DNA of 24,518 bases from the IMG/VR virus record IMGVR_UViG_3300017917_000396, positions 1 through 24,518 of that record, one strand, 5' to 3'. A program made the translations under genes and the position numbers. The number at the start of each line of letters is the position of its first letter. Position 1 is the first letter of the stretch. Shown here in pieces: positions 8,920-23,473 of this stretch. Below the pieces are notes generated by a model. That model had not been told where the DNA came from. It searched no databases and worked only from the letters and a program-made list of their open reading frames with translations. The DNA is from a virus.

Positions 8920-9975
8920 CTATTTGCGTCCGATCACCATGAATCGACGATAGCGTGTTTCTGGATCTTGGAGCTGTTTGGTTCCTGCGTACAACACTTG
9001 ATCCAGAGGAAACTTTGCCAGAATGTCTTCTGGGCTTTCGAACTGATTGCCAGGATCGCGATCTCGTGCCTGCATTGCAACCAAGGTACCGTCAGGTATG
9101 TGTCGGAACCAATCTGTTCCATCCATGTCAGTGAGGCTGGTATTGATCACCACACCTGCATTGCCCAGTTGTCTGTAGTCTAGATCATTGGCATCTTTGT
9201 ACATGTGCTCCACATTAGTGGCACCAATATGATCGTGCATACTCTCACTTTGATCCAGCATGTCTTGATTGGTTTCTACATTGATAATGTTTGTGTACTT
9301 GATCATAGGCAACAAGTTCATGTACAAACTCATATTGCCATACCAACAACCAAGAATGTAAACAGTGCCCACTGCAGGAGCTATCTTTGCCAGTTCTGTT
9401 AGCAACCATACTTTACTCACAATCAGGTCTCTTGTAAAACTGCCTTGTAAACTATAACCACTGCTTTCTGTGATTGGCCTAGCAGGTGGTATGCGTGTGG
9501 CACTGGGTCGTTGTGAATTGTATTCACGATTGCACATTGGATTGATTGCAGATACAATACGTGTTTCGATGTTGCTTAATTCTTGTTTAAATGTTGAGCT
9601 TCCGGGATTGGGTCGCGGATAAAATCTCAGTGTGATATCTTTCAAATCATCCAGTCCATAGCCTTGTTGAGCAAACTTGTCAGCAAAGGTCTTCCAGTTG
9701 GCCATCTGTTTTGCACTGCTACACTGATCTAAAAGTTTTTGAATGTGTTTGTTCCAGCGTTCTGTGAAGTTGTCTGCAGCAGCGATACCCACATAGAAAT
9801 ATCCCCAGTCTGGATGATGCCAAACATAGATACCACTTTGTCTAGTTTCTGCTGGACGATCTCTGCGCAGTTGTATGCTCAAGCCACCTTGCGGTCTTGC
9901 TTGTACTGCTTTGAATATGTCATAGAAGTTGTATCTAACACTACGACCTAGACGTTCAACTTCGCTGAGTCTCAT
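8920..9975 (-). CDS. GIY-YIG nuclease-like domain fused to SAM methyltransferase-like domain
   Basis: A 351-residue two-domain protein. The N-terminal domain has the complete GIY-YIG pattern: GIYVW (48-52), YFYVGIA (59-65) as the YIG strand, R73 in TERWNKH as the catalytic Arg, and E137 in NIETRI with N149 in PMCNREYN as the metal-ligand Glu and downstream Asn. The C-terminal domain (about 185-351) looks like a class I methyltransferase: TVYILGCWYGNMSLYM (204-219) as motif I, VETNQDM (233-239) as the acidic motif II, and VVINTSLTDMDG (275-286) near motif IV. It could cut and methylate DNA, or pair recognition with modification. Its start MRLSEVERLG is a weak match to the capsid-targeting pattern of its upstream neighbours. 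The ATG overlaps the preceding stop. It is last in the long operon. Substrate unknown. Confidence 0.75.
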   Translation of the reverse strand: MRLSEVERLGRSVRYNFYDIFKAVQARPQGGLSIQLRRDRPAETRQSGIYVWHHPDWGYFYVGIAAADNFTERWNKHIQKLLDQCSSAKQMANWKTFADKFAQQGYGLDDLKDITLRFYPRPNPGSSTFKQELSNIETRIVSAINPMCNREYNSQRPSATRIPPARPITESSGYSLQGSFTRDLIVSKVWLLTELAKIAPAVGTVYILGCWYGNMSLYMNLLPMIKYTNIINVETNQDMLDQSESMHDHIGATNVEHMYKDANDLDYRQLGNAGVVINTSLTDMDGTDWFRHIPDGTLVAMQARDRDPGNQFESPEDILAKFPLDQVLYAGTKQLQDPETRYRRFMVIGRK

Positions 9976-10112
9976 ACTTCGCTGTAGGGGTTGATCGGGC
10001 GATCTGTGCCATCGGATTCTGGCAATACTGGATAACGATCTTGACTGGCCAACTCAGGGTCGTTCCATACGTTGCGATTGTTCAAGATCTGTTGACGTTG
10101 TTGTTCAGTCAC
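9972..10112 (-). CDS. Small unknown protein, GTG start
   Basis: I place the start at GTG (10112-10110), giving 46 residues beginning MTEQQRQQILNNRNVWNDPE. A strong AAGGAGG ribosome binding site lies 8 bases upstream, while an ATG further upstream (10160) would overlap the preceding gene by 56 bases and has no such site. The stop overlaps the next ATG. The protein is polar, rich in Gln, Asn and Pro, with no recognisable domain. It is probably a real operon member of unknown role. Confidence 0.6.
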   Translation of the reverse strand: MTEQQRQQILNNRNVWNDPELASQDRYPVLPESDGTDRPINPYSEV

Positions 10113-10512
10113 GTATAGGTCCTCCTTCGACCCAGGCATCACAGGTGCGTTTGGCCGCACATTTGAATTTTAAAAATTTGCAGTAGCCTAGAGTACCAGC
10201 GTCAATGGTGTCATGTGGATCAGATCCAGGTTCACTTCCAATACCTTTGGCAATACAGTCTTGCATTTTTGTTGTTTCATCAAAGGCTGCACAGTTGCCG
10301 CAACGTGCTGATTTGGCATCGTCAGGATCAGTCATGTTCCACTCATCGGCTTTGGCCTGCCAAAATTCTTCGTTGGGTGCGTTGGGATCCAAGGGGCCAT
10401 AGCCATATTCGTCTATGGCTTTTTGACGATTTTTTAAGTTGAGATCAATGCTTTGTGTTGCTGGCGGACAACCACTTTCTAGTGCCTCCAACATGTTGAT
10501 CAAATCTCTCAT
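10105..10512 (-). CDS. Cysteine-rich putative metal/iron-sulfur protein
   Basis: A 135-residue protein with six cysteines in the C-terminal half: C71-x2-C74-x11-C86-x24-C111-x6-C118-x5-C124, in the contexts RCGNCAAF, DCIAKG, GYCKFLKFKC and RTCDAWVEGGPI. The C-x2-C, C, G-Y-C order resembles small high-potential iron-sulfur-type proteins but could also bind zinc. Residues 28-60 (around NRQKAIDEYGYGPLDPNAP) form a conserved-looking linker. The N-terminus MRDLINMLEALESG may be a short capsid-targeting peptide with cleavage after MLE. The ATG overlaps the stop of a 39-codon gene. Function unknown. Confidence 0.65.
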   Translation of the reverse strand: MRDLINMLEALESGCPPATQSIDLNLKNRQKAIDEYGYGPLDPNAPNEEFWQAKADEWNMTDPDDAKSARCGNCAAFDETTKMQDCIAKGIGSEPGSDPHDTIDAGTLGYCKFLKFKCAAKRTCDAWVEGGPIRD

Positions 10513-10628
10513 AACAATCCTTCTGCCTTTAGTTGAGCTCTGTATAAGTTTTTAGCTTCAGTAAATGTTGCTGCAATTATTTCAATCACTCGATCTGAGT
10601 TTGGTAATCCAAATTTGTATGTTCTCAT
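10509..10628 (-). CDS. 39-residue unknown protein
   Basis: A short ORF starting MRTYKFGLPNSDRVIEIIAA and ending RAQLKAEGLL. It exactly fills the gap between two real genes: its ATG is 1 base after the preceding TAA and its TGA overlaps the next ATG (ATGA). The GGAAAA at the end of the upstream gene may serve as ribosome binding site. The central part (EIIAATFTEAKNLYRAQL) is a helix of the kind seen in very small phage proteins. No function is known to me. Confidence 0.6.
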   Translation of the reverse strand: MRTYKFGLPNSDRVIEIIAATFTEAKNLYRAQLKAEGLL

Positions 10629-10629
10629 T

Positions 10630-11286
10630 TTATTTTCCAGCCTTGGCTAGGGCTGCTCCTTTGTTGAAACTGGGTGACCATGGACTCATTCCATCTACGC
10701 CACCGCGTGCCTTGCTCCAATTGTATCCTGCTCTATGACCTGAACAGTCTTTGGTACATTCACTGCCTAAAAAAGTCAATTCATCTAGTTGTTGTTCGTA
10801 TAGATCAGGATCAAAATCATCTGCTGAAATAAAATATGTAGTACCATCACGATGTTGTAATTGTACAGCATCATCTTCTGATTCTACTTGTGCAATGCTC
10901 CAACCCATGCTGTTTAGCACCGATTCAATCTGTGGTTGCTTGTCTGTGGCATTCCACCAACGATTGGCCAAAATCAACAATTGATCTGGAACATCATCGT
11001 CACGCTCGGGACGGCTGGGTGCAAATTCGTTTACTTTTGTTGCCACATTCTTGGCTTTGCCACGACGTTCTGGATTAGGATCTTCTCTGCGTTTTTTGGC
11101 CGCTGCACTTGCACGACCTTTTTTGCCTAAGGCATGTGCTTTTGATTGTGGCAAACACTTGGGCTTGCCTTCCGACTCGCTTCCTCTGGCACAGTCGCCA
11201 CGAATCTTGCCGTCAGGTCCAAAGCGAACCCATTTTTCTTTGAACCACTTGCGTAGGTCTTCAGAGATAAATTCACTGGCTCTCAT
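10630..11286 (-). CDS. Probable capsid-targeted protein with two Cys/basic modules (DUF5872-like N-terminal part)
   Basis: A 218-residue protein. MRASEFISE resembles the T4 internal-protein targeting peptide (MKTYQEFIAE), with gp21-type cleavage expected after ISE. Residues 11-80 form a basic module with WVRFGPDGKIRGDC, C32 and C44, a PKCLP turn, then an Arg/Lys-rich tail ending NPERRGKAKN; I recognise this as the DUF5872-type phage module. The middle (100-165) is acidic and helical. The C-terminus has a second module, ECTKDCSGHRAGYNWSKARG (176-195) followed by PSFNKGAALAKAGK. Both modules look suited to DNA or metal binding. The start and stop overlap or abut neighbours. Confidence 0.7.
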   Translation of the reverse strand: MRASEFISEDLRKWFKEKWVRFGPDGKIRGDCARGSESEGKPKCLPQSKAHALGKKGRASAAAKKRREDPNPERRGKAKNVATKVNEFAPSRPERDDDVPDQLLILANRWWNATDKQPQIESVLNSMGWSIAQVESEDDAVQLQHRDGTTYFISADDFDPDLYEQQLDELTFLGSECTKDCSGHRAGYNWSKARGGVDGMSPWSPSFNKGAALAKAGK

Positions 11287-11759
11287 TTTTTGCTTTTGTT
11301 GCCCCAGTTGGCAGCACCTTTTTTACGACACTGTACCAGTGCACCTGATGCATAAGCACTGGGCCATACTTTGTATCTTGACTTGACTTTGCGATAGCAA
11401 GCGTCTTGTTCTTCGTGCAGTTCAGCTTCTTCATACATGCCCGTGCGTTGCAACTGGCCATCTTTGTCCAATGTATAACCCACTTGAATCAACTGTTTGA
11501 TTTTTTGCTTGACTAATTCTTCATTGCCTTGACTCATGGCATCTTCAATTTCGCCAGCAATGATTCTGGCGTTGCGATCGTCTTGATTTTCTTCATGAAC
11601 CTGTTGGCTACCTTTGAGCAAAGACCAATGCTTGGCCATCCACTCGTCCGGAGTCATCTTGTAGCGACTGTAAAATGCCACTGGTTGCAAATTTTTATAA
11701 TCTTGATATTGTATAGCAAGATCGCCCATGCGACTTTCAAATAAATCATTCAGTATCAT
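11283..11759 (-). CDS. Probable capsid-targeted protein with C-terminal Cys/Arg module
   Basis: A 158-residue protein beginning MILNDLFESRM, similar to the N-terminus of T4 Alt (MELITELFDED), so it may carry an Alt-type capsid-targeting peptide cut after LFE. Residues about 20-115 are helical and acidic (RIIAGEIEDAMSQGNEELVK). A second possible cleavage site (LHEE) precedes the basic C-terminal module ACYRKVKSRYKVWPSAYASG and ALVQCRKKGAANWGNKSKK, which has two Cys and many Arg/Lys. This module recurs in aquatic T4-like phages; I know no established function. ATG overlaps the stop of the 811-residue gene. Confidence 0.7.
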   Translation of the reverse strand: MILNDLFESRMGDLAIQYQDYKNLQPVAFYSRYKMTPDEWMAKHWSLLKGSQQVHEENQDDRNARIIAGEIEDAMSQGNEELVKQKIKQLIQVGYTLDKDGQLQRTGMYEEAELHEEQDACYRKVKSRYKVWPSAYASGALVQCRKKGAANWGNKSKK

Positions 11760-14191
11760 TCTTTGAATCCTTTTAGCTTGGCTTCACGTTGTTTGTCTAA
11801 CCAGCGTTGTTTGACTTCAGCACGTGTTTCTGGATCCAACGTCTTGTCGTTGAGCAATTTAAACAAGTGTTGTTCAACTTCTTCCCAGTGTTTTTGATTC
11901 AACAGAGGACCATAACCTGCACGGCCTTCTTTGACTTCTTTCTTTTCAGGTTGTTGTGGTTTGGGTTGTGGAAAGTGTGCTGGTGGCTTGCCAAAAATTT
12001 CACCAAAGTCCTTGAACAACTGTTTCATGATATCATCATCCTTTGGCTGTTGTTCAGTTTCACGCATGACTTTGCGAATGTGTACTTCACCGCCTAGTTT
12101 TTTCTGCATTTCTTGAGCATCTTGTTCCACACGCTTGAGGTCTTTTAATTTGTAGAACGCAACTTCACGACCATTGTGCGTGAGCATGTACACTGGTTCT
12201 TGCTGATACATGGGTTGACCACTGCGGTCTAGTTGTGATTCTTCTGTGTATTCTTTGTCACCGTAGTGTGCTTCGTAGCCGCGATTCCAGTCACGATGTT
12301 CTTGTGTGCCTGCTGGATAAGGATTTCTTTTGGCTCTAGCATAGTGTCCTTCTCTAGCGCCATTGACATAGGCCTCACTGTGATCTTTGGCTTGTTGACC
12401 TTCCATGTGTTGACGACGACTGAACACTGCTTTCTTTCTTGCTAGATAAGATTCAAGTTTGTCCACTAATTTTTGATAGTAGGACAAAGTGTCATTGTAG
12501 TCTTGGTCAGTTTGCGGCAACGGATAATCTAATTCTAAATCTGCTGCAAGTCCTCTTTCAATACCGCCAGGTTTGCGTTGAGCACGATCAGTGAGTTGCT
12601 CAATTTTTTGTTTGAGTCTGAGAATTTGATCCAGTTTGTTGCGACGACTTTGTGCCTGTGCCAGAGTAATGGGTTCATTCACTGGCAGTGTTGCAGACGG
12701 CGCTGGTTGTGGTTCTGTTGGTTGTGCTTGTTGTGCTTGTTGTTGAGCTATGGCCTTGCGAGCTTGCATCAATTGATATTGATTTTTGGCAGCCAATGCT
12801 TCACCAACTGGACGTTCTACACTTCGAGTTTCTAAATCATCTGGGTACTTGTCTTCTTCACTGGCATCAATGATACGATTGGCCACAACTTGATAGTTGT
12901 TGTAGCTACCTGGTTTGTTTGGGGCACGTCCCACTAACTTTCCGCCGCGACTTACTGTGACTATTCGTTTGACAGGATCGTATTCTACTGTGTAGCCTTG
13001 AACAACCATTTTGCTTGGAATGCTACGACCTTCGTCTTCGGCAACTTTTTGTAGTCGTTGTGGAAAGTCAAGCACGTTGTCAGCTCTTTCAACATCATCA
13101 GTTGATGCTGGTTCTGCTGTGCGTTCTGTATCACTGGCTCCAGGAAATAGGTCAATGACTTTTGGAATCTCAGCCGGAATCTCAGATGGTTTTCCAACTG
13201 TGGGCGCTGGAGGAATGTTTGGTTGTACTGGTTTGATCTTGGCACCGCCAGCCATCTTGGACATGGCAGACATAGCGGCCTTGCTGGCCTTTTCAGCATC
13301 AATTTCAGCTTTGCTTCTACGTTTGCGTTTGGGCTTGGCCAACACAGTGGCTGGCTGTCCGCCTACTGTGGCTGGTGTTGCTGTGGGAATGCCTGCCGGA
13401 GGCAATGCTGCGGTCCAGTCTGGCTTGGTATCTGCGGCACTAGGAGCTGTCCATGTACCTGTACCAGCAGTGGCAGTGGTATCGGCGTCGGCATCAGTTG
13501 CGGATGCTTTTTCTTTTTCTTTGGGTCTACGTTTGGCTATGTCAGCTAGTTTTTTGGCCAGTTCTGCATTTACTGTACGTAGCTGTTGTAGATTCTGTTG
13601 TAATTCATCTTTGTCTGAATCCAAACTGTCAATCTCTTGATCTTGTTGTTGATTGATTGCTGTTATACGTTTCAACAATTCATCTTGTTTTTTATTTGTG
13701 TCTTTGACTCTTTGAAATTCTCTTTGATCGGCATCCTGACTGTCAACAAAGTCAGCGGTCATGGCTTCTAAGTCACTGCCAGCAGATGGATACTTGGCAC
13801 GAGCCTGAGTTTTTAATCTTGCAAGTTTGGTATTTTTAAATTCTGGATTGGATTGTTTTTCAGAATTTTTTTTTTCAAAAAGTTTGCTTTGTGCCAACTC
13901 GTTTAAGAAACGTATGGTTTTGTTGTAGTCAGTTAAAACACCATAGACCAACTGAGCTTTGTCATTTTGAGTCTCAAGGGTGTTGTAGTAATCGGCCAGC
14001 ATGTCGACCCATTGCTCTGACAGTTTGTAAGATTTTCCACCTGGAAAATCAAACTGCACAGGTCTTGTTGGATTGGTGCTGTAGGCCTTGATCAAGTTGG
14101 CAAAATTTACTGTGCCATAATGCTTGGTAGATTCGTATCCAACTGGTTTACGAAAGTTAGGATCTTGTTCAAATAAATCTAAAGTAATCAT
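11756..14191 (-). CDS. Large probable capsid-targeted coiled-coil protein with an RMF-like module
   Basis: An 811-residue protein starting MITLDLFEQDP, an Alt-type targeting motif with cleavage expected after LFE. Residues 150-220 are a strong coiled coil. Residues 225-345 are an Ala/Pro/Thr-rich low-complexity linker with a basic patch (KPKRKRRSKAEIDAEKASKA, 286-305). Residues 395-440 form a small beta module (MVVQGYTVEYDPVKRIVTV). Another coiled-coil segment is near 510-590. Residues 607-640 match the ribosome modulation factor pattern A-x3-G-x7-G.. NPYP..H..W..G (AYVNGAREGHYARAKRNPYP, HRDWNRGYE). The C-terminal end is again charged and helical. It is one of the biggest candidate cargo proteins and could scaffold or bind DNA. 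The function is unproven. Confidence 0.7.
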   Translation of the reverse strand: MITLDLFEQDPNFRKPVGYESTKHYGTVNFANLIKAYSTNPTRPVQFDFPGGKSYKLSEQWVDMLADYYNTLETQNDKAQLVYGVLTDYNKTIRFLNELAQSKLFEKKNSEKQSNPEFKNTKLARLKTQARAKYPSAGSDLEAMTADFVDSQDADQREFQRVKDTNKKQDELLKRITAINQQQDQEIDSLDSDKDELQQNLQQLRTVNAELAKKLADIAKRRPKEKEKASATDADADTTATAGTGTWTAPSAADTKPDWTAALPPAGIPTATPATVGGQPATVLAKPKRKRRSKAEIDAEKASKAAMSAMSKMAGGAKIKPVQPNIPPAPTVGKPSEIPAEIPKVIDLFPGASDTERTAEPASTDDVERADNVLDFPQRLQKVAEDEGRSIPSKMVVQGYTVEYDPVKRIVTVSRGGKLVGRAPNKPGSYNNYQVVANRIIDASEEDKYPDDLETRSVERPVGEALAAKNQYQLMQARKAIAQQQAQQAQPTEPQPAPSATLPVNEPITLAQAQSRRNKLDQILRLKQKIEQLTDRAQRKPGGIERGLAADLELDYPLPQTDQDYNDTLSYYQKLVDKLESYLARKKAVFSRRQHMEGQQAKDHSEAYVNGAREGHYARAKRNPYPAGTQEHRDWNRGYEAHYGDKEYTEESQLDRSGQPMYQQEPVYMLTHNGREVAFYKLKDLKRVEQDAQEMQKKLGGEVHIRKVMRETEQQPKDDDIMKQLFKDFGEIFGKPPAHFPQPKPQQPEKKEVKEGRAGYGPLLNQKHWEEVEQHLFKLLNDKTLDPETRAEVKQRWLDKQREAKLKGFKE

Positions 14192-14895
14192 TATGCCTCG
14201 TCAATGTAGTCTGCTGATTGATCAGCTTTTTTCTGTCTAGAACAAAACATTTCAAAGGCCATTGTGGCTTCGTCGATGTTTTTAAAACGACTCTTAAGAC
14301 GTCGATTACCGTGACGAATCTCAAACCCTGTGTGCTCATTGCCGTGTATTTCACAGATGCGACCGTCTTCCATGGTCATGGTTTTGACAGGGCCTGTGGC
14401 GGATTCAGCGTAGGTAGGATTCTCAACTGGAATAGTTGGAGCTTGAATTGCTGGATCTTCTTCAGTGGGATCTTCTGTGACTTCGTCTTTGGCAACTAGG
14501 TCTCGATCTTTTTTGTCTTTTTTGCCAATGTCTCGATCTGCAGGCTTTTCACCAAGCTCATGATCAATTTTCTTTTCTAGCTTTTCTTCAACACTGGCTA
14601 GGTAATCTGTCAAGGACTTTTTGACTTTGTCCAAGAGCTTTTCTTCGTCAACCTTGGCTTCTTCAACAACTTCTTTGTCGGTTTCTTCTTCTTCGCCTAC
14701 CAACCAACCATCCATGGGATGATCCTGATATGGAGGCTTGCTGAGTGTAGGACTGATATCCTTGGGCTTGAACAATGCTGGCAATTGCTTGACAGACTTT
14801 TGTTCAGGATTAAGGCCAGACTTGACGGTGGTAGGAGTTATACGTCCCTCAAGTATAGCCAATCGTTCGATGATGTTGCGAATATCATTGCTCAT
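14191..14895 (-). CDS. Acidic probable internal head protein with conserved C-terminal domain
   Basis: A 234-residue, highly charged protein. The start MSNDIRNIIERLAILEGRI fits a helical targeting peptide with a gp21-type cleavage site after ILE. Residues 65-150 are dominated by Glu, Lys and Asp (a possible coiled coil with EKLLDKVKKSLTDYLASVEE). The C-terminal 55 residues are a compact domain: MEDGRICEIHGNEHTGFEIR (175-194 or so) then RRLKSRFKNIDEATMAFEMF, a module I have seen in other aquatic phage proteins but cannot name. Its stop overlaps the next ATG by 1 base, and its own ATG is 1 base after the Dps-like gene's stop. Confidence 0.65.
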   Translation of the reverse strand: MSNDIRNIIERLAILEGRITPTTVKSGLNPEQKSVKQLPALFKPKDISPTLSKPPYQDHPMDGWLVGEEEETDKEVVEEAKVDEEKLLDKVKKSLTDYLASVEEKLEKKIDHELGEKPADRDIGKKDKKDRDLVAKDEVTEDPTEEDPAIQAPTIPVENPTYAESATGPVKTMTMEDGRICEIHGNEHTGFEIRHGNRRLKSRFKNIDEATMAFEMFCSRQKKADQSADYIDEA

Positions 14896-14896
14896 T

Positions 14897-15337
14897 TTAT
14901 GCTCTTGCGTCCTTTAAAAAACTCTTTAGCTGCCACATGTATTTGCCGTGTGCGTCTTGACGTTCTGCCATAAAGTTGGCAATGTCTTCACGCTTTTCGG
15001 CCTGTGCGGCTTCGAACACCTGCATGACCAAGTCTTTCATGGTCTGTGTGTCTGCTAATAATTCTTCTAACATAAGACGAGCACGTGGCACTTTGAGCTG
15101 GCCAGGTACAATTGATAATTCATTGAAACGCTCAAAACTGCCAGGAGCATATTCTTCCAAGGTACGGATATATTCAGCAATCTTGTCCACAGCACCATAA
15201 GCGTCGCCGTAGATTTCAGCAAAAAATTCGTGTAGTTGAGCAAAGTCAGGACCTTCCACATTCCAATGGAACATCTGTGCTTTTAAATAATAAGCAAAAT
15301 TACTGGCCAACAACTGTTTTAATAAATCACTCAACAT
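14897..15337 (-). CDS. dps: Dps-like ferritin (DNA protection/iron storage)
   Basis: A 146-residue protein of Dps type. HWNVEGPDFAQLHEFF (24-39) gives the two histidines H24 and H36 of the ferroxidase motif, and VDKIAEYI (50-57) gives D51 and E55, matching Listeria Dps H31, H43, D58 and E62. The remaining ligand, Asp47 in Listeria, is replaced by Ala40 (E41 is next to it), so iron oxidation may be altered. Dps proteins form 12-mers that bind DNA and detoxify iron and peroxide. Found among probable capsid cargo, it could condense or protect phage DNA, or act early in the host. It has no MRxxEFI-type leader of its own. It overlaps the upstream gene by 11 bases. Confidence 0.87.
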   Translation of the reverse strand: MLSDLLKQLLASNFAYYLKAQMFHWNVEGPDFAQLHEFFAEIYGDAYGAVDKIAEYIRTLEEYAPGSFERFNELSIVPGQLKVPRARLMLEELLADTQTMKDLVMQVFEAAQAEKREDIANFMAERQDAHGKYMWQLKSFLKDARA

Positions 15338-15518
15338 TCTTTTTACCCTTGTTTTTTCTCATTCTTTTCGGTGTGTTCGGAAAAGGATCGTTTGTGTATT
15401 TACCTGTAAACATAGATCCACCAGATCTTGTTATAGGTGCTCCTAGTGCCGCAGGAACTGTGGCAATAGCACCGGATGTTGTAGCGCCGGCTGATTCCAT
15501 GAATTCTTTAAATCGCAT
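15327..15518 (-). CDS. 63-residue protein with capsid-targeting-like N-terminus
   Basis: Starts MRFKEFMESAGATTSGAIAT. MRxKEFME is a variant of the T4 targeting motif, with cleavage expected after FME. The rest is Gly/Ala/Thr-rich and ends in a very basic tail (PKRMRKNKGKKN), so the mature peptide would be a small basic DNA-binding-like molecule. An AAGGAT ribosome binding site sits just upstream of the ATG, inside the end of the preceding gene (11-base overlap). Proteins of this shape are common in aquatic T4-like phages; I know no function. Confidence 0.68.
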   Translation of the reverse strand: MRFKEFMESAGATTSGAIATVPAALGAPITRSGGSMFTGKYTNDPFPNTPKRMRKNKGKKNVE

Positions 15519-15804
15519 TTTCTATCCTTAATAGGGATCCTTGGATGTGTCCAGGTCCAAATTCCACACGTAAATTTTTCACATCTAAATGAGCCAGATG
15601 TGGAGCCACAAGCTCATAACGAATATGGTATTCTCCGGGTTCTGCATTGATTTGCAACAGTTCTTCTAAATACACTGTGTCACTGTCCCAGTACCAGGTT
15701 CGTTCGGCAAATAATTCGTCGTTGACATACACACGATACACTGGTGGTAAACCTTCCCAGTCGCAATGAACGTCACCTAGCACTCGCACGAATTTTTTGT
15801 CCAT
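15508..15804 (-). CDS. Small beta-rich unknown protein
   Basis: A 98-residue protein, MDKKFVRVLGDVHCDWEGLP onward, with regularly spaced strands (VYRVYVNDELFAERTW, YHIRYELVAP, LDVKNLRVEFG), which suggests a small jelly-roll or immunoglobulin-like sandwich such as carbohydrate-binding modules have. It lacks a targeting-type N-terminus, unlike its neighbours. It has no clear Shine-Dalgarno site; a CTAAATA motif lies 4 bases before the ATG. A glycan- or virion-binding role is a guess from fold pattern only. Confidence 0.6.
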   Translation of the reverse strand: MDKKFVRVLGDVHCDWEGLPPVYRVYVNDELFAERTWYWDSDTVYLEELLQINAEPGEYHIRYELVAPHLAHLDVKNLRVEFGPGHIQGSLLRIENAI

Positions 15805-15808
15805 GCTG

Positions 15809-15816
15809 TATTTAGC
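15809..15816 (-). promoter_or_regulatory. Late-promoter-like motif (GCTAAATA) just upstream of 15804
   Basis: Minus strand GCTAAATA (15816-15809), 6 of 8 matches to the T4 late consensus TATAAATA, sits in a 31-base gap and ends 4 bases before the ATG. A start from it would give an mRNA with almost no leader. The same spacing is seen before the 1726-residue gene. Weak evidence alone. Confidence 0.3.
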
Positions 15817-15835
15817 TTGTTTTCTTTTTGGGTGT

Positions 15836-16420
15836 TTAAAGACTAAATGGGTCTATTATGACAATTTGACCGTCTTTTCTACGGCCTAGATTTTCAATTG
15901 AGCGTAAATCCAGCGGTGCTTGTCCGCCAATGGCATCTTCAAGATCTTGTGTGGCCATGACCAAGCCGTCAACTTGTTGTTCTGATAATTCGGGCGGTCT
16001 TTTTTTGTTTTGATAAAATGCTGCCAGGGCTTGTTCACCACGCGGTAATGCACTCATTAAATCTTCAATGTATTCAAGCACCCGATCTTCACCGCTTACT
16101 GGGTGCAAGTATTCCATTTCGTACACAAAGTAAGTTTCGCCGTCTACTGCAAAATCTCCGGCATTGTATATACGTGGATAGTGTGGATTACGCTGATTAC
16201 GCAAGAAGAACCCTACGTAAGTTTTTACTATGTCTTCACGCTCATCTTCGCCTATGCCCACAACTTTGAGCACTGTGCCACGTGGGCTTAGAAATGCTAT
16301 TTGATCACGGCCTTCGCCTAAGTATTTGTACCCACGATCAGTGAAGTAATCTTGTATGCGTTGACTAACTGATAATTCGTCGTCGGCATTGATTTCAGCA
16401 ATAAACTCTTGTGCTCGCAT
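15836..16420 (-). CDS. Probable capsid-targeted compact kinase-like protein
   Basis: I place the start at the internal ATG (16420), not the longer form at 16444: it gives MRAQEFIAEI, nearly identical to T4 MKTYQEFIAE, and overlaps the preceding TAA by 1 base. The 194-residue product has a kinase-like pattern: glycine-rich turn LGEGRDQIAF (34-43), strand with Lys VLKVVG (K52), hinge-like YFVYEMEYL (97-105), catalytic-loop-like DLRSIENLG (D171, N177) and metal-binding IIDP (D190 in the DFG position). It is shorter than classical kinases and ends 4 residues after D190, so the activation segment and C-lobe helices are missing. It may be a phosphotransferase, AMPylator or inactive relative. If packaged, it would reach the host at injection. 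Confidence 0.68.
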   Translation of the reverse strand: MRAQEFIAEINADDELSVSQRIQDYFTDRGYKYLGEGRDQIAFLSPRGTVLKVVGIGEDEREDIVKTYVGFFLRNQRNPHYPRIYNAGDFAVDGETYFVYEMEYLHPVSGEDRVLEYIEDLMSALPRGEQALAAFYQNKKRPPELSEQQVDGLVMATQDLEDAIGGQAPLDLRSIENLGRRKDGQIVIIDPFSL

Positions 16421-17202
16421 TATAAACCTGCCAAGGGTTCCCAACCCAAATTTTCAATACGATCAGCTGGAATATTTGCTTGAGCTCGGTACCAACCATC
16501 TTTATAAGTCAACGGAATACCGCGAATGTCAATCTTCAACAAATTTAGTTCTTCATCTGAATCTTCTGTTCTAGCATACAACCAACCAGCCACTTGATAT
16601 AACTCTTGGCGTAGTCGTTGTTGATCTCCTTCGTCTACCACTAGGTAAACATTGCCATCTCTGGGTCGTAATCCAACTGCGTCAATTTCTTCAGCATTTT
16701 CTTCTGTGGTTATGTGATATGCAGTATCAAATTCATGTTGTTCTTCCGACAACTGTTCGGATTCCATCATCTCAGCACCCACACGATCAGCAATTACCGA
16801 CCATGCTTCATAGTTGGCGTTGTCATTGATCACTAGTTCACGTTGTTCTGTGTCGTATAGTCTTTCGCCGGCTTCAAATAGAGCCCGGATGATAGCAGTA
16901 GCGGCACCTTTGTAGTTGCCAGCTGTGGCATCTTCTACCACAACAATCATTGAGTCACCTTCGGCATAGGCATTGAGCGTGAGATAAAATGCTCCACGCA
17001 CTGTGTCACCACCAGCAAATGCACTGGCCGCACCCTGTTGTCCTTTGGCTGTGGTCAATCCCACACCTTCTACCACTGACTTGCCGTAGAGTTTGACGCC
17101 TGGATAAAGTTCACCAAACGCATCTTGAGCCACTGCCACAATGTTCTGTGGTTGCATCTGTTCAAAGTCCACTGACTCAACAATAAACTCACGGGCTCTC
17201 AT
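16420..17202 (-). CDS. Probable capsid-targeted protein with ADP-ribosyltransferase-like C-terminal domain
   Basis: A 260-residue protein starting MRAREFIVES, a targeting-type peptide with cleavage after IVE. Residues 20-145 form an alpha/beta domain with segment ATAIIRALFEAGERLY and a NDNANYEAWSVIADRVGAE end that resembles GNAT acetyltransferases, though the acetyl-CoA loop is not clear. The C-terminal domain (158-255) follows the ART/RNA 2'-phosphotransferase-like pattern: TAYHIT (160-165), NAEEIDAVGLRPRDGNVYLV (169-188), LLKIDIRGIPL (221-231) and ANIPADRIENLG (242-253). T4 delivers an ART, Alt, from the capsid to modify host RNA polymerase, so an injected ART here is a natural parallel. 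NAD binding and targets are unproven. ATGA overlap with the upstream 59-codon gene. Confidence 0.68.
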   Translation of the reverse strand: MRAREFIVESVDFEQMQPQNIVAVAQDAFGELYPGVKLYGKSVVEGVGLTTAKGQQGAASAFAGGDTVRGAFYLTLNAYAEGDSMIVVVEDATAGNYKGAATAIIRALFEAGERLYDTEQRELVINDNANYEAWSVIADRVGAEMMESEQLSEEQHEFDTAYHITTEENAEEIDAVGLRPRDGNVYLVVDEGDQQRLRQELYQVAGWLYARTEDSDEELNLLKIDIRGIPLTYKDGWYRAQANIPADRIENLGWEPLAGL

Positions 17203-17378
17203 TTTATTTCCTTGACTGATCCTACCTGATGATCTTGAATTTGATATTGTTGTTTTAACATGGTTCTGGCAATCTGTGCGTTGGGTGCCCAGACTTGAGC
17301 ATCAACATAGCCCACATAGTTGGGTTGATTGATACGTACTTTGGCAGTCCACAGTTTACCTAGCTGTTTTATTTTCAT
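17199..17378 (-). CDS. 59-residue unknown protein
   Basis: An ORF starting MKIKQLGKLWTAKVRINQPN and ending QVGSVKEIK. It fills the gap between its neighbours: TGA overlaps the ATG of the ART-like gene (ATGA) and the ATG lies 6 bases after the preceding stop. It has a beta-strand start followed by a helix ANAQIARTMLKQQYQIQ-like segment (residues 31-48), the layout of small phage proteins of unknown role. There is no targeting leader and only a weak ribosome binding site. Confidence 0.62.
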   Translation of the reverse strand: MKIKQLGKLWTAKVRINQPNYVGYVDAQVWAPNAQIARTMLKQQYQIQDHQVGSVKEIK

Positions 17379-17384
17379 AATATA

Positions 17385-17675
17385 TTACTTATTCTTTTGG
17401 CGACCGCTCTTCATATTGGCGCACCAGTGATACATTTTGCCTTTTTCGCCACCGTACTTACGGGCCTTAGCTCTTAAATCAGTCACTGATCCGGAGCAAC
17501 TAGCACCAGCACGTTTTACACGGCCAGGACGACTTTTGCCCTTGACCTTGCCATCTGCAAAGTTTTCTTCAACTGAACTTTGTTCGTAGAGTCGATGTAA
17601 TTTGTAAGTGGTAGAACCGGCAAAGTCTGATATGTCTGCTTCGTAGCCTAAAGCACTGGCATAACGACGAACCAA
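17385..17675 (-). CDS. 3' part of a gene interrupted by an in-frame TGA, with C-terminal Cys/basic module
   Basis: The frame is open from the TGA of the upstream gene (17714-17712) to 17385, with no ATG near the beginning; the first usable start is a TTG at 17675, with no good ribosome binding site. Read from the TGA the sequence is QKAGTRSNLYTSLVRRYASA and continues naturally from the upstream protein, so this looks like one gene split by a stop. Residues 43 to the end form a basic module with ADGKVKGKSRPGRVKRAG, C60, then YHWCANMKSGRQKNK, similar in style to the other Cys/Arg modules of the operon. It could be expressed by readthrough or weak re-initiation, or be a dead fragment. Confidence 0.55.
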   Translation of the reverse strand: MVRRYASALGYEADISDFAGSTTYKLHRLYEQSSVEENFADGKVKGKSRPGRVKRAGASCSGSVTDLRAKARKYGGEKGKMYHWCANMKSGRQKNK

Positions 17676-17711
17676 ACTTGTGTATAAGTTTGATCTTGTG
17701 CCAGCCTTTTG

Positions 17712-18296
17712 TCAGGGCTCAACATCTTTGTTGGCACTGAAATATAATTGCTCGGGTTTTCTTTTTTCAATGAATTGTGCAATGGCCGCTAGTACTGTGG
17801 CAAACACACGCTGAGCATCTCCTGCTCCTGTGACTTCTTGACTGTTGTCTCGCCAAAACTCCACACTGTAAATACCTTGCCCTTCGTCATCGTAATCCTG
17901 ATTAAACATGATGCTCAGATTACTTCCATCGGGCAAGCGAGCCAAGGCATCCGCACTTTCATCTGCTTCACTCTTTTCCCAAGTAATAGGATAAGGAGCG
18001 TCAAAAGATTCCATGATACCAGTGGCACGGCGCAATCTCAAATCGTAGTCTACATCACTTTCATAGCGATCAACATAATCGGCATAATAGCGTTGAGCTT
18101 CTGTAGGAGTGTTGGCGTCAAACTTGTGAACTACCTTGTTAGGTGTTTCAGCATGATAGATTTCATAGCCTTTGTTGAGTCTATCACGCACACGAGCCAT
18201 GCGTTCTTGTCTTGCGTCAACTTGCTGATTGGCACGACTCAAATACTGCTGTAGACGCTCGTCACTAATCTCTGCTATAAATTCACAGGCTCTCAT
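17712..18296 (-). CDS. Probable capsid-targeted protein, truncated by an in-frame TGA
   Basis: A 194-residue protein starting MRACEFIAEISDE, a very good match to the T4 targeting peptide, with cleavage after IAE. Residues 12-90 are helical and Arg/Asp-rich. The following domain runs PITWEKSEADESADALARLP, SLSIMFN, YSVEFWRDNSQEVTGAGDAQ (about 142-161), RVFATVLAAIAQFIEKRKPE and ends QLYFSANKDVEP. In relatives I recall, this domain continues after the LYFSA strand into a helix like the one encoded just past the TGA (LYTSLVRRYASALGY), so the domain here is cut before its last helix. The ATG overlaps the stop of the 1726-residue gene by 4 bases. Function unknown. Confidence 0.68.
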   Translation of the reverse strand: MRACEFIAEISDERLQQYLSRANQQVDARQERMARVRDRLNKGYEIYHAETPNKVVHKFDANTPTEAQRYYADYVDRYESDVDYDLRLRRATGIMESFDAPYPITWEKSEADESADALARLPDGSNLSIMFNQDYDDEGQGIYSVEFWRDNSQEVTGAGDAQRVFATVLAAIAQFIEKRKPEQLYFSANKDVEP

Positions 18297-21200
18297 TTTT
18301 TCTGTTTCTTTGCTTCTGGACTGATCTTTACAATCACCGCTGGATTAACCGCAGGATCATCCTTGCGTGGTACTTGATTGTACTTGGTACGCATGGCGTC
18401 TTGTCTTACTGGCGCCACTGGAGTGACTTTTGTTTCTTTGACTTTATTCTTGCGATCCAACATGTTGTAATGACCATTGTCCAACTTCAGTGCATTCACA
18501 GCCATTTGCATCACAGTGTTCTTAGCTGATTGCGGCACAGCGGCCCAGTTAGCATAGCCCAACTTCTTGGCAGCTGCATCCATGGCATTACGAGCTTTTT
18601 GTGCGTCATCAATACTTTCATTTGTTGCGGTTGACATCTTTGGTCTAACAGCAAAGCGTTCTCTGTAAGTATCAGGATCTTCTGCTCCAACAGTACGCAA
18701 CCAACTCAAGGCCTGTTGCATTGCTTCACGTTCGTTGTGATCAGCAATGTTGCGTAATACGGTACCAGTTTCTTGATCATACAAATCCCACAAAGGAACA
18801 CCGTTGGCAGAACGAGCCTGTTGAGGTTGATTTGTGGCCGCTGATGCCATAGCACGATAGCCATAGTTTTCTGTGTCTATGGGCATGCCTTGATTGCGTA
18901 GCCAGTTGTTGAATTTGTCTCCAGCATCTGTGGCAGAATCAGCACTGTATTGTAGCATCACACGATTGGTTCTGCGATCCACAATCTCATACTGACCACT
19001 ATCTTGATCTACGGTGATGTCAATGTCACGCACCTGTGGGTCTAATCTTTGTTGAATTTGACGACTGTCACGAGCATTGTCTATGGCCTGTTGAGCATTT
19101 GACGCTCGTTGTACTGAGAAGTTTTCTACATCCAGACCCTTGTCTCGCAAATAGGTCACAGAAAAATCCACAGCCTGACTCATGGTACTAGCACGGAATG
19201 TGTAGAATGGCAATAGGCTGTGTTTGTTGATGATCACATAGTCACGTGGCTGTGCAATCTGCTTGGCCAACTTGGCTCTACGGCTCAACTTGGGTTCTGG
19301 CTCAGACGGTTGCTCGCCACCATAGGGTTCAATGTAATATGGAATAACATCTGTGTATTTTTCATATGCTTGATCCGAGGCTTCCCCACGTGTAGCAGCA
19401 TCGATGATTTCCAAGGTTTCGTGATTGTCACGACGTATCACACGCCAACGGCCTGTATTGGTGCCCACATCACGTAATTCGTAAGTCTGATTAAAATCTG
19501 TCATGGAACTAGCTGGACTAACTTTGGCCTTGGCACGTTCAATAGCATCCAATTCTGTATAGTTAGAATAGTCTTGTCCGGGCACAGGTTCTCCGGTTCT
19601 ACGGTTGTACAAACGCCAGTTTGATTTTTTGTTGTCTGCCGGAACTTCCTTGGAAATGACTTTTTCAGCCCACTGCTTTTTGAGTTGTTCTGCTGTGATT
19701 TCACCGGCGCTGAACTTGCTGAACAATTCTAGATCTTTATTGCCTTCAGGAGCAATAAGTTTGTATAACTTCTTGTAGTATTCTGGACGCTCTAGGTCAG
19801 GACGACCTGCCAAGTACATGGCATAGGCAAAGCGACGCATGGTGTCTTCCAACACGTTGATTTCTTCGTCGGCTTTGGCCAAGTAATCACCACCTGGGCT
19901 ACGGAATTCAATGTAGCCGTCTTTGATGTGTGCTGATGTATATTTGCTGTTGCCCACTCCTTGCTGTACATAGTTCTGTGCCAGTTCCAACAAGTTGTTC
20001 TTCATCAACTCCATGGCTGATGCAATCTTGTCATCGTTGCGATTCTTGCTGCCAGCAACGTTTTGTTTGAGTTTTTCCATGGCACTTGCTGTGTAGGTAT
20101 TGGCCGCACGACCAAACTTGTCCAACACATACTTGTCGCCCATGAATAATATTAACTTCAAGTAGTCAACATCGCCACCTTTGTAGGGTATTGATACACC
20201 CATGTGTAGTCCAGTTGATCTGTTGGTATAGGCATTGCCTTCGTTGGGATCATTGGCCCATTCAACGACCTTTTGCAGTTGCTCAATGGCCTGATTTAAC
20301 GGCATAGGTGGGCTAACAATTTCCAAGCCTACTTCTTCATTTTTGTCGTCGGGATCTAATGATCCGTCGGGTTCAATCACATAGTAATCACCACGCTTTT
20401 GACTGTGGTATCCTGAACTAACTTTCACAGGCATGCCAGTGGCATTGCGCAGGCTCACACCAATGTCGTCCCAATCACGTGATCCGTAGTTGCTGTTTCC
20501 GCCACCAGTGTAGTAGGGCCAATCCAGACTGTACTCGTTGGCCACATCGCTCATCCAGCGCAGGCCGATGTCATTAAAGAAATCGCTGTCGTCTGCATCA
20601 TATCCGTCACGGAAGTTGTCCAGAGCTTGATCATAGTAGCCGTCTTGATTGTCTATGCTGGCTTCAACTTCTTCATCCAAGATCTCGTCAGCAATGTCCA
20701 CAGCTTCAAGGTATTGAGCATATCTTTCATTCTCTTTTTTGTATTCTTCTTGATCTGCATTCTTTGTAAAGCGTGGTGCTTTATTACCAGCAGCCATAAC
20801 TTGATCAGCTTCGGCATCATCCAGGCCCATGCCATCTGTCAAGGCACTGAGTATGCGCTCGTCCATTGGACGTTCTTCCAACCATACTTCACGCACAAGA
20901 TCTTCTGATTCACGATTAAACGCATCAATGATTTGATCATCGCGCCACTCAAAGTAGGCTTCATCCAATTGATTTCTCAAGCGGTCGGCCTGGCGATCAC
21001 TGAGTCCATATCCGTATTCATCATTCATGAAAAAATCAATGACTTCGTCAACGGTCCTTGCACGCTCGTCCATGTCATAGTCGGGTTCCATGTCTTGCTC
21101 TTCAGCATCTCCGGCAGTGTCACGGAAAATTAATTCTGCTTCAAACCCAGCACGTATGCCTTCTGCTTCTGGGCTACTAGCAAACTTGGCCAAAGCACTC

Positions 21201-23473
21201 GGGCTCATTTTAACTTCGTCTAATTCTACACTTTCACGCACAGGAACATTTTTCAAGTAGTGTGGGTTGATAGCAATAACATCACCTACCTTTAGTTTGC
21301 CACGACCATCGGCAGCCACAATGCGAATTTTGGTTTTCTTTGTGCTGGTGTCAATCACTTGCCCAACCACACTGTCGTAGCCTTGATACATGCGAGTCAA
21401 GTCTAGCAATTCTTCATTTACGTTGTATGTGGGATCAGTTTTGATCTTGCGTCCAGGACGTTGCACAGGATCTGCGGGATCAATGTCAGTGACATCCAGG
21501 CCAGTGGCTTCTAGGTCGCCAATGAATTTGTGTTCTGTATCTTCGTCGCCAAAGCTCACAATGGTACTGGGAGGTCCTTGACCAAAATCATGCTGGCCCA
21601 GACCCTTCATGTTGGCAATGTGTTGACCCAGTTTGTACCAGTCATAAACATCACTAACATCCACACGCACAGTGCCTTTGGGCATGGTGGGCTTGAACTC
21701 TGGTCCTGGCGGTGTTTGATTGCCCAAACTGTCTATACGACCTGTTTCTTTGAATTCACGTAGGGCGTTGCGTAGACCCTTGATCAACAAGTCAGGATGT
21801 CCTTGACTGTCTGTGTCTAATTTTAATTTGTTGGCTTCCTTGCCCACTTGACCAGGTTTGATATCCTGGGTGAGTGCCATGCTAAAACGTGGATCTTTGC
21901 TTTGTTTCTTTGTGGGAATATAACCTGATGCTGATTCATTCTGCGGCTCTGGCTTTTCCATTTTCTTTTGCAGTTGATACAAACGACTTTGATTCTTGGC
22001 ATTGGCTGATCCTGGACCTTGTCCTTGTGCTCGGATAAAGTTGCGTAGCTCTTGATCTAGTTCAGCTTGTACACCTTGCTTGGTCATGCCTTTTACAGTC
22101 TGTGCTGTGCGTCCCACAGTTTGTACATCCTTTGCAACCTGGCCTGTTGTGGTAGCACAACCAGGTGTGCCTGCTATACAGGCAGCTGCTGCAAGTCCTG
22201 CTGCTTTTTCTTTCCAACCTTCTTCGATGCCTGTTAGGTCATCGGCTTGTCCGTGTGCAAAATATTCTGGGTGCAGTCTAGCATAGTCGCGCATGAGTAT
22301 GCCAGCACGTGCATTGGCTTCGTTTTCGTACCGGCTACCAGTTTCTCCAGCATCTGCAGGCACTGCTTCACGCTCGTGCTGACGACGGTGTGTGAGTTCA
22401 TGAGCTACTGTACGCAACACATCCATGATGTGACGATTGCCCCAGGCCACTTCCAACATGTCACGATCATCTATGTAGCGACCAAAGGTCTTGTGTACTT
22501 CAGGCCACTGTGGATCACGACGCAATTTGATTGTGGGCAGTTTTTGTATTTTTAATTCTTTTACACAAAAATCCACAAAGTCTCTTAGTATTTGTTCGTC
22601 AGTGGGCGCATTGACTTTTTCTTCAATGCTTTCACCACCGCCATCTCCACCACCTGCGTCTGCAGAACCAGCATCGGATCCAGTGTCAAAATTGTAGCCT
22701 GGATACCAATATCCACCAAAACCGTATTTTACTTTTTTCTTTTTGGATTTCTTTTTACGACGCTCATTCAAACTCATTTCGGCATCCTGAGCCGCTGTTC
22801 TAGCATCATATAATTTTTTGATCAGGCCTTGGTTGCGCAACATTTTATAGGCCAAGTTCTCAGCGCCTAGTTCGCCATGTGCATCAAGTCCTGCCTGACG
22901 CATGTTTTTGATTTTCTTTGCCAACTCTGCAATAGCAACACCATCTTGGGAAGCAATGGCAGATTCAATTCTGTGTCCAAGGTCTTCAAACTTGCTCTTG
23001 ACTGCTTCATCGTTCACCGTGGCACGTATTTTACGTGGAATTTTAACCCAGTCATTGTTCATCACTGAGTATATGCCCTGACTCACTGGTTGCTTGCGGG
23101 CATCTTCTACATAGAGCTCTACATCGTAGCCACCAATGGTGATATTGTGTTGATCATTGTACTGATACTTTTTGGCATCAAACAATTCACGATAAACATC
23201 AGACTCGTCGGCCTGTGGAATATCTACCACTAGGTGTAAATCAATGTCTGAATAAGGTGTGTAAGTGTATCCGGCATTGGAGCCTGATACTGTGATGTCT
23301 TTTACTTCTATGTCACTTAGACCCAAAAACTCTTTGAAATCTTGAGCAATGACCATGAGTCGCTCACGCACCTCTGGTTTCATTTTGTCACCGGACCAGA
23401 TGGCAGGATTTAATTGGTCATTGAATTTAACAGCATCTGCTAAATTATAGGAATCTAATTCTGTGATGTTCAT
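18293..23473 (-). CDS. Giant multidomain protein: nucleotidyltransferase, HExxH metallopeptidase, amidoligase-like, tandem repeats
   Basis: A 1726-residue protein. Domains in order: nucleotidyltransferase fold, VSGSNAGYTYTPYSDIDLHL (62-81; D76, D78) with D117 in YDVELYVE; a Lys-rich and Gly/Asp-rich linker (235-290); a zinc metallopeptidase, VAHELTHRRQHE (H358, E359, H362) with YENEAN (382-387) giving the third ligand; a hydrophobic Ala-rich segment (424-441); an unnamed domain near 600-740 with a KOW/SH3-like strand set; an amidoligase-like (glutamine-synthetase-fold) domain from GFEAELIF (776-783) through GLEIVSPP (1049-1056), STGLHMGVS (1086-1094) and YIEFRSPGGDY (1187-1197); then about five repeats of some 50-70 residues (1285-1612). 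Sites like the gp21 cleavage motif (LNE 235-237, IEE 283-285 and 416-418, LDE 751-753) lie between domains, so it may be a polyprotein. It has a promoter but no clear ribosome binding site. First gene of the cargo operon. Confidence 0.85.
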   Translation of the reverse strand: MNITELDSYNLADAVKFNDQLNPAIWSGDKMKPEVRERLMVIAQDFKEFLGLSDIEVKDITVSGSNAGYTYTPYSDIDLHLVVDIPQADESDVYRELFDAKKYQYNDQHNITIGGYDVELYVEDARKQPVSQGIYSVMNNDWVKIPRKIRATVNDEAVKSKFEDLGHRIESAIASQDGVAIAELAKKIKNMRQAGLDAHGELGAENLAYKMLRNQGLIKKLYDARTAAQDAEMSLNERRKKKSKKKKVKYGFGGYWYPGYNFDTGSDAGSADAGGGDGGGESIEEKVNAPTDEQILRDFVDFCVKELKIQKLPTIKLRRDPQWPEVHKTFGRYIDDRDMLEVAWGNRHIMDVLRTVAHELTHRRQHEREAVPADAGETGSRYENEANARAGILMRDYARLHPEYFAHGQADDLTGIEEGWKEKAAGLAAAACIAGTPGCATTTGQVAKDVQTVGRTAQTVKGMTKQGVQAELDQELRNFIRAQGQGPGSANAKNQSRLYQLQKKMEKPEPQNESASGYIPTKKQSKDPRFSMALTQDIKPGQVGKEANKLKLDTDSQGHPDLLIKGLRNALREFKETGRIDSLGNQTPPGPEFKPTMPKGTVRVDVSDVYDWYKLGQHIANMKGLGQHDFGQGPPSTIVSFGDEDTEHKFIGDLEATGLDVTDIDPADPVQRPGRKIKTDPTYNVNEELLDLTRMYQGYDSVVGQVIDTSTKKTKIRIVAADGRGKLKVGDVIAINPHYLKNVPVRESVELDEVKMSPSALAKFASSPEAEGIRAGFEAELIFRDTAGDAEEQDMEPDYDMDERARTVDEVIDFFMNDEYGYGLSDRQADRLRNQLDEAYFEWRDDQIIDAFNRESEDLVREVWLEERPMDERILSALTDGMGLDDAEADQVMAAGNKAPRFTKNADQEEYKKENERYAQYLEAVDIADEILDEEVEASIDNQDGYYDQALDNFRDGYDADDSDFFNDIGLRWMSDVANEYSLDWPYYTGGGNSNYGSRDWDDIGVSLRNATGMPVKVSSGYHSQKRGDYYVIEPDGSLDPDDKNEEVGLEIVSPPMPLNQAIEQLQKVVEWANDPNEGNAYTNRSTGLHMGVSIPYKGGDVDYLKLILFMGDKYVLDKFGRAANTYTASAMEKLKQNVAGSKNRNDDKIASAMELMKNNLLELAQNYVQQGVGNSKYTSAHIKDGYIEFRSPGGDYLAKADEEINVLEDTMRRFAYAMYLAGRPDLERPEYYKKLYKLIAPEGNKDLELFSKFSAGEITAEQLKKQWAEKVISKEVPADNKKSNWRLYNRRTGEPVPGQDYSNYTELDAIERAKAKVSPASSMTDFNQTYELRDVGTNTGRWRVIRRDNHETLEIIDAATRGEASDQAYEKYTDVIPYYIEPYGGEQPSEPEPKLSRRAKLAKQIAQPRDYVIINKHSLLPFYTFRASTMSQAVDFSVTYLRDKGLDVENFSVQRASNAQQAIDNARDSRQIQQRLDPQVRDIDITVDQDSGQYEIVDRRTNRVMLQYSADSATDAGDKFNNWLRNQGMPIDTENYGYRAMASAATNQPQQARSANGVPLWDLYDQETGTVLRNIADHNEREAMQQALSWLRTVGAEDPDTYRERFAVRPKMSTATNESIDDAQKARNAMDAAAKKLGYANWAAVPQSAKNTVMQMAVNALKLDNGHYNMLDRKNKVKETKVTPVAPVRQDAMRTKYNQVPRKDDPAVNPAVIVKISPEAKKQKK
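18638..19621 (-). repeat. Tandem protein-level repeats at the C-terminus of the giant protein
   Basis: Residues about 1285-1612 hold roughly five related units that share a strand-turn-strand start and a helix with A/Y-x3-A: NWRLYNRRTGEPVPG, RWRVIRRDNHETLEI, DYVIINKHSLLPFYT, QYEIVDRRTNRVMLQ and LWDLYDQETGTVLRN, each followed by a helix (for example EREAMQQALSWLR). Units are diverged, so the repeat is visible in protein and not in DNA. Such repeats usually bind a ligand or partner. Confidence 0.6.

Follow-up and report, generated by a model that had tools for sequence, protein, structure and literature searches.

The window analysed here is a complete 24.5-kb contig (24,518 nucleotides) of the IMG/VR record IMGVR_UViG_3300017917_000396, and its minus strand carries a long run of genes that extends from a gene for a 1726-residue protein to the sliding clamp and polymerase region. 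We propose, with a probability of about 0.7, that this run encodes cargo polyproteins carrying an N-terminal capsid-targeting sequence (CTS; the tag), which are split into cassettes as the head matures and are injected afterwards. In this model MRAxEFIxE or MIxxDLFE, equivalent to the MKTYQEFIAE of the T4 internal proteins IPII and IPIII, would place the cargo in the prohead core, and a gp21-type protease would cleave after [LIVMF]xE and so remove the tag. Internal copies of the site at module starts would then allow the polyprotein to be split into separate modules inside the head. The released kinase, GIY-YIG, nucleotidyltransferase, amidoligase and small basic, probably DNA-binding, domains would exit with the DNA and enter the host. 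As every module carries a site of its own, swapping between genes or phages would be possible, and so would splitting into separately tagged genes. The observations behind the model are a peptide signal that heads unrelated bodies, the exchange of modules bounded by the site, gp21 and gp23 genes in relatives and homologues in virions of the cyanophage S-CREM2. From these we infer packaging in the phage of the window, cleavage at internal sites and activities in the host; injection would follow by analogy with T4.

Seven minus-strand genes within 8920-18296 start with MRxxEF[IM]xE or MIxxDLFE, all of them where an earlier note on this DNA had placed them. Weaker versions head four more (MRLSE, MRDLINMLE, ..LAILE and MNITE); the three weak N-termini that the note had listed (MRDLINMLE, MSNDIRNIIERLAILE and MRLSEVE) are real, and MNITE heads the 1726-residue protein (18293-23473), just beyond that interval. 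The tag is not clear on three genes inside the run, namely a Dps/ferritin gene (14897-15337) and the open reading frames (ORFs) 15508-15804 and 17199-17378. In 81 related sequences (the window plus 80 relatives), 27 of 1312 predicted N-termini carry the strict motif, compared with 2 of 7835 internal-methionine contexts, an approximately 80-fold enrichment. Among all fetched loci, 69 distinct MRAx[ED]F[LIV]xE starts are found on 38 unrelated body families, which bears out the suggestion of the note that unrelated bodies lie behind a common N-terminus. In these 69 starts Ala3 is written with all four of its codons, Glu5 as GAA or GAG (37/31) and Phe6 as TTT or TTC (50/19). Because of the N-terminal enrichment, the unrelated bodies and the synonymous codon variation, the tag is best described as a peptide-level signal common to unrelated proteins and not as a DNA motif.

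In T4, residues 4 and 7 of MKTYQEFIAE serve targeting and residues 8 and 10 processing (PMC9026906). Phe7-Ile8-x-Glu10 is retained in the tags of the window, which have one residue fewer; the residue matching position 4 is Ala, Phe, Tyr or Leu. Applied to T4 as a control, the tag rule recovers IPII, IPIII, Alt, gp21, gp22, gp24 and gp68, and it also picks about a dozen other ORFs of 290; IPI, which begins MKTFKEFTST, is missed. The start of Alt, MELITELFDE, had been offered in the note as an example of the cut, but the Alt propeptide is seven residues long (PMC9026906), so by our reading the cut falls at LITE and not at ELFDE.

The DNA polymerase of the window is about 50% identical to those of the jumbo phages Sinorhizobium Phosso and Agrobacterium Atu_ph07 and 77-95% identical to those of many uncultured contigs, and we therefore assign the window to a T4-superfamily jumbo phage, of which it would be a fragment. 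In the large-contig relatives G003, G004 and G007 the genes for Peptidase_S77 (gp21) and gp23 lie near each other. The N-terminus of gp23 in the relatives has several [LI]xE sites, LLE/G, ILE/N and, as the last, LRE/NASSGS (a slash marks the predicted cut).

The published virion proteome of S-CREM2 (PMC10665884 Table 3) allows the tag to be compared with virion presence. Our first simple tag expression gave no match among the virion proteins, because cyanophage tags read MKxFxxFLTE and not EFIxE. The T4 core, F[ILM]xE, is found in 4 of 51 virion proteins and in 1 of 166 others (p = 0.011); the counts for F[ILMF]xE within the N-terminal 12 residues, a class widened after inspection of virion N-termini and hence partly post hoc, are 5/51 against 1/166 (p = 0.003). 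Tagged virion proteins include a SAM hydrolase (MKDFDSFLEE), a kinase (MKRFDAFLTE) and a cytidylyltransferase (MKNFSSFLTE), with tags closer to that of T4 than those of the window are. A Cas9-like nuclease in the same virions (ORF12, OR473000 7704-10313) has a tag-like RFASFMAE at residues 18-25. Two further virion-detected proteins relate directly to the window: ORF156 is a homologue of the nucleotidyltransferase part of the 1726-residue protein (37% identity), and ORF160, as read from its sequence, is an array of basic modules like those in the 218- and 158-residue proteins listed below.

The genes of the run, and the large gene beside it, are as follows.

18293-23473, minus strand: 1726-residue putative polyvalent protein, MNITE; junction sites YNVNE (21413-21421), VPVRE (21233-21241) and VELDE (21215-21223).
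17712-18296, minus strand: putative cargo gene, tag MRACEFIAE (18270-18296); internal site TGIME (18009-18017) before an FDxPYxxxW module.
17385-17675, minus strand: basic module, SSVEE then NFADGKVKGKSRPGRV, site 17565-17573; fused in frame to the preceding gene in L209.
17199-17378, minus strand: small untagged ORF; its L223 homologue, tagged MRSKEFITE, forms the N-terminal module of a fused protein.
16420-17202, minus strand: putative cargo gene, tag MRAREFIVE (17176-17202); candidate internal site EQLSE (16744-16752).
15836-16420, minus strand: kinase-like putative cargo of 194 residues, tag MRAQEFIAE (16394-16420), internal ATG start; assigned from PHROG 15752, AlphaFold2 (AF2) and Foldseek.
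15327-15518, minus strand: 63-residue protein composed of MRFKEFME, a segment like the mature gp23 N-arm and a basic tail, from sequence comparison with gp23 of relatives.
14897-15337, minus strand: untagged Dps/ferritin-like gene (Pfam Ferritin, 2.9e-21).
14191-14895, minus strand: cargo candidate, MSNDIRNIIERLAILE, ..RLAILE (14848-14895); RLA[IL][LI]E is kept in homologues.
11756-14191, minus strand: cargo candidate of 811 residues, MITLDLFE (14168-14191); several internal LxE sites.
11283-11759, minus strand: putative cargo of 158 residues, MILNDLFE (11736-11759); internal AELHE (11412-11420) before a DACYxKVK module.
10630-11286, minus strand: putative three-cassette cargo of 218 residues, MRASEFISE; sites 11260-11268, 11026-11034, 10795-10803 and 10780-10788.
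10105-10512, minus strand: cargo candidate, MRDLINMLE; in homologues the N-terminal stretch still ends in [LM][LIV]E.
8920-9975, minus strand: GIY-YIG protein of 351 residues, MRLSE/VERLG, with a second module from PITE/SSGYSL (9466-9474); from a domain match and relatives.

The proteins of the window and of its relatives have modules in common, differently combined, and hydrophobic-x-E usually stands immediately before a recurring module. Before the KWVRFGPDGKI module, Glu precedes [DN]L in 60 of 60 distinct contexts, with Leu, Ile, Val or Met nearly always at P3, and the sequence upstream is either a tag (MRASEFISE, MRAEEFITE) or unrelated internal sequence. Four further modules (DACYxKVK, CWxGY, FADGK and FDxPY) show the same trend, with exceptions. 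The kinase module keeps hydrophobic-x-E in all eight homologues that cover the site (FIAE, FVRE, QLNE, KLEE, PINE, GLTE, AVAE and NLQE), behind unrelated upstream sequence.

Since part of this per-module pattern could reflect conservation within the module, an unsupervised test across modules was run on 2264 non-redundant ORFs, a boundary being the point at which alignable sequence starts behind unalignable sequence. At 55% identity or more, [LIVMF]xE is present at a fraction of 0.401 of 73 boundary families, compared with 0.174 expected (z 10.7). The control motifs [LIVMF]xD, [LIVMF]xK and [ASTG]xE are not enriched at those 73 families. By this comparison of sequences the protease consensus at module junctions exceeds chance.

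Individual cases illustrate the exchange. The 218-residue protein is laid out as MRASEFISE/DLRKWF..KVNE/FAPSRP..DLYE/QQLDE/LTFLGS.., and its counterpart in L001 lacks exactly the middle cassette (KVGE/EQLDE/LTFLG). That middle piece (FAPTPD..DLYE/) is held by the 1851-residue G003 homologue of the large protein, together with the first cassette of the 194-residue protein encoded at 17712-18296 (..SDxRLQQYLSRA..GLME/). L224 reads MRAKEFITE/NFADGKK and its close relative L225, with an inserted module, MRAKEFI..YNVGE/NFADGKK. In L223 the homologue of 16420-17202 is fused behind that of the adjacent ORF 17199-17378, with LVKE replacing the tag (LVKE/SVDFEQ where the window has FIVE/SVDFEQ). In L060 and L043 an N-terminal tag precedes the FDxPYxxxW module; in L210, L211 and others an LxE-type site within the protein does so. 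The SSGYSL module is a separate gene in relatives, starting ..LDE/SSGYSL or DLAE/SSGYSL. The suggestion in the note of a T4-type targeting peptide cut at [LI]xE thus agrees with the enrichment, the diversity of bodies, the gp21 and gp23 genes of relatives and the S-CREM2 virion mass spectrometry, and was incomplete in that the cut-site half of the peptide recurs inside proteins, at module boundaries. A search of open-licence papers, preprints not being covered, found no description of such site-bounded cassettes.

Several points weigh against this interpretation. Cleavage at the module junctions is predicted from the motif, and packaging and tag processing in the phage of the window are argued from the sequence pattern and the S-CREM2 homologues. 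The contig itself, a 24.5-kb fragment without head genes, has no gp21 gene. Tyr4, important for targeting in T4 (PMC9026906), is matched by Ala3 in tags of the window. The near-complete relatives G003 and G004 each have only two MRAxEF-type genes, so the size of the tagged set varies. The boundary test is weaker without the identity cut (z 4.2), as would be expected from ragged boundaries under looser alignment cut-offs. Some junctions miss the consensus (TNE/SVDFEQ in L224, TNE/AKKCW in Syn19), and module arrays of cyanophages (T4-GC119) have no clear N-terminal tag. Long proteins also carry LxE inside probable folded domains, and accessibility of the sites must therefore matter.

The fusion-remnant and core-protein alternatives remain, and we consider both unlikely. 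In the first, the N-terminal tag alone is processed, and LxE at the junctions reflects the composition of flexible linkers or is what a gene fusion leaves of a tag. When two tagged genes fuse, the second body would necessarily keep ..[LI]xE ahead of it, which the comparison of L223 with the window fits, and acidic linkers are common; however, [LIVMF]xD and [ASTG]xE show no enrichment at the same boundaries, and the residues before internal sites are unlike a decayed tag, yet hydrophobic-x-E is retained. To a very similar, marginally lower, likelihood we assign the possibility that the tagged proteins belong to the prohead core or scaffold, like gp22, gp67 and gp68, and are chopped at LxE for removal and expelled as fragments before DNA packaging. 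Although gp21 does cut T4 core proteins into multiple fragments (PMC9026906) and the 811-residue protein is by sequence rich in coiled coil and linker, folded enzymes are among the modules (kinase, GIY-YIG, nucleotidyltransferase, amidoligase), the sites are concentrated at module boundaries and homologues of two of the operon proteins are present in mature S-CREM2 virions. A DNA-level origin of the common N-terminus, as start-site context or recombination sequence with no packaging role, was rejected as highly improbable, since synonymous codons vary freely where the residues are fixed and in S-CREM2 proteins with the peptide are more often found in the virion, even though the tagged genes lie in one operon with overlapping start and stop codons.

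Among the bodies, the kinase-like module named in the note is supported by a match to PHROG 15752 (T7 kinase family, 6e-7), by an AF2 model (pLDDT 83) in which the body is folded and residues 1-11, the tag, are disordered, and by Foldseek matches of that model to kinases and APH enzymes (probability 1.0, TM ~0.4). Invariant Asp, Asn and Asp residues in the family are consistent with kinase catalytic loops. The 1726-residue protein contains an amidoligase domain over the Pfam cut-off, a nucleotidyltransferase just below it that also matches PHROG 36119, and a zincin-like HELTH motif read from the sequence; it fits the polyvalent type, with several biochemically disparate predicted domains in one polypeptide. 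No Pfam or PHROG match to an ART fold was obtained, and the structure model is poor (W16420, pLDDT 48). The RMF-like module listed in the note was unsupported: that reading of the DACYxKVK module has been dropped, and the resemblance of this module to DUF5872 is weak. No close homologue of the KWVRF module or of the 63-residue protein was found in isolated phages.

The module at 17385-17675 is probably the broken-off end of the preceding gene (17712-18296), since the two are fused in frame in L209. There they form one 302-residue protein, and in the window the frame is broken at 17676-17712; the downstream ORF has TTG as its sole start. A 258-residue ORF of L209, starting near 4099, combines the tag MRAQEFIIE with a GH19 chitinase/lysozyme domain (E 2e-12) and is apparently a head-packaged cell-wall hydrolase. 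The Dps/ferritin gene is conserved inside the run, and its product may be co-packaged with the DNA or act in the cell. A scan for late promoters found no exact TATAAATA and, over both strands, 28 one-mismatch matches against 16 expected, which is uninformative.

A side finding concerns gp61.1 of T4 (NC_000866 18966-19130, L219), a conserved ORF of unknown function in which a CTS (MKTFKEFIKE/) and a gp21 site are followed by a mature gp23 N-arm copy and a basic tail. It aligns with T4 gp23 (NC_000866 104945-106510, L221) over 37 residues including the cut site, FIKE/DMVAGD..TSGAV against FLTE/AEIGGD..TSGAV, with a score of 82 compared with 47 for the best of 1000 shuffles. Sequences like gp61.1 are matched in 1386 phage records, some of which are possibly the capsid gene itself. 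In pairwise shuffle tests, most members of the 63-residue family are similar to the gp23 arm found in relatives; when G003 and G004 were searched genome-wide with this arm by Smith-Waterman alignment, the 63-residue protein did not stand out. Both gp61.1 and the 63-residue protein have a CTS, a cut site and a likeness to the gp23 N-arm; they differ in sequence, each apparently resembling the capsid protein of its own lineage. Proteins of this type are likely to be packaged imitations of the mature capsid arm. S-CREM2 ORF160 (OR473000 128342-129235) has a copy of the mature N-arm of its own major capsid protein, identical at 19 of 24 positions, followed by basic modules, and in the MKLYEIISE.. 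ORF of L224 and L225 a capsid-arm-like segment, MQE/TATAGATSAGNVGVG, lies inside a larger tagged protein.

We lean, with rather less assurance than for the run itself, towards a general view in which the protease of capsid maturation doubles as a processor of polyproteins in T4-superfamily phages, interchangeable gp21-bordered cassettes behind one tag being cut apart in the head to give independent effectors, and in which small tagged proteins copy the gp23 N-arm, possibly at the place of the arm on the inner shell. If this is true, a simple rule that combines the tag with [LIVMF]xE/ wherever a module begins predicts from sequence what many uncultured T4-like phages inject, and gives a place of action to the large DACYxKVK, KWVRFGPDGKI and CWxGY families, whose functions are unknown. 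Effector domains would be freed in a step coupled to capsid maturation, by analogy with viral polyproteins, and T4, a model virus, would offer a direct test of capsid-arm mimicry in gp61.1, a conserved gene whose function is unknown.

The closest known systems share parts of this arrangement. The T4 proteins IPI, IPII, IPIII and Alt have a short N-terminal peptide ending in hydrophobic-x-E before unrelated bodies, at least ten Ip proteins of T-even relatives are known by their leader (PMC12373910), and CTS sets in T-even phages are likewise established (PMC12373910, PMC9026906). The window differs in having more genes per operon, a tag that has one residue fewer and Ala in place of Tyr4, and multi-module proteins whose internal junctions carry the cut site of the tag. 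T4 gp21 (Peptidase_S77) has the same [LI]xE specificity and cuts gp22 and gp67 at several sites, whereas in the window the internal sites flank enzyme and basic modules that can be exchanged and would persist separately. Polyvalent proteins (Iyer et al. 2017, PMC5512222) are multidomain injected effectors with nucleotidyltransferase, kinase and peptidase domains, for which the analogy to polyproteins has already been drawn; their release was proposed to occur through embedded peptidase domains, whereas the module-delimiting sites of the window match the capsid maturation protease. The phiKZ-like phage SPN3US also packages many ejection proteins, and its prohead protease cleaves C-terminal to Glu in a short motif, but all mapped substrate sites except those of the protease itself remove N-terminal propeptides (PMC10052503), and processing at module junctions is not reported. 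Set beside these systems, the N-terminal tag is of a known kind, and the cassette polyprotein is a new variant.

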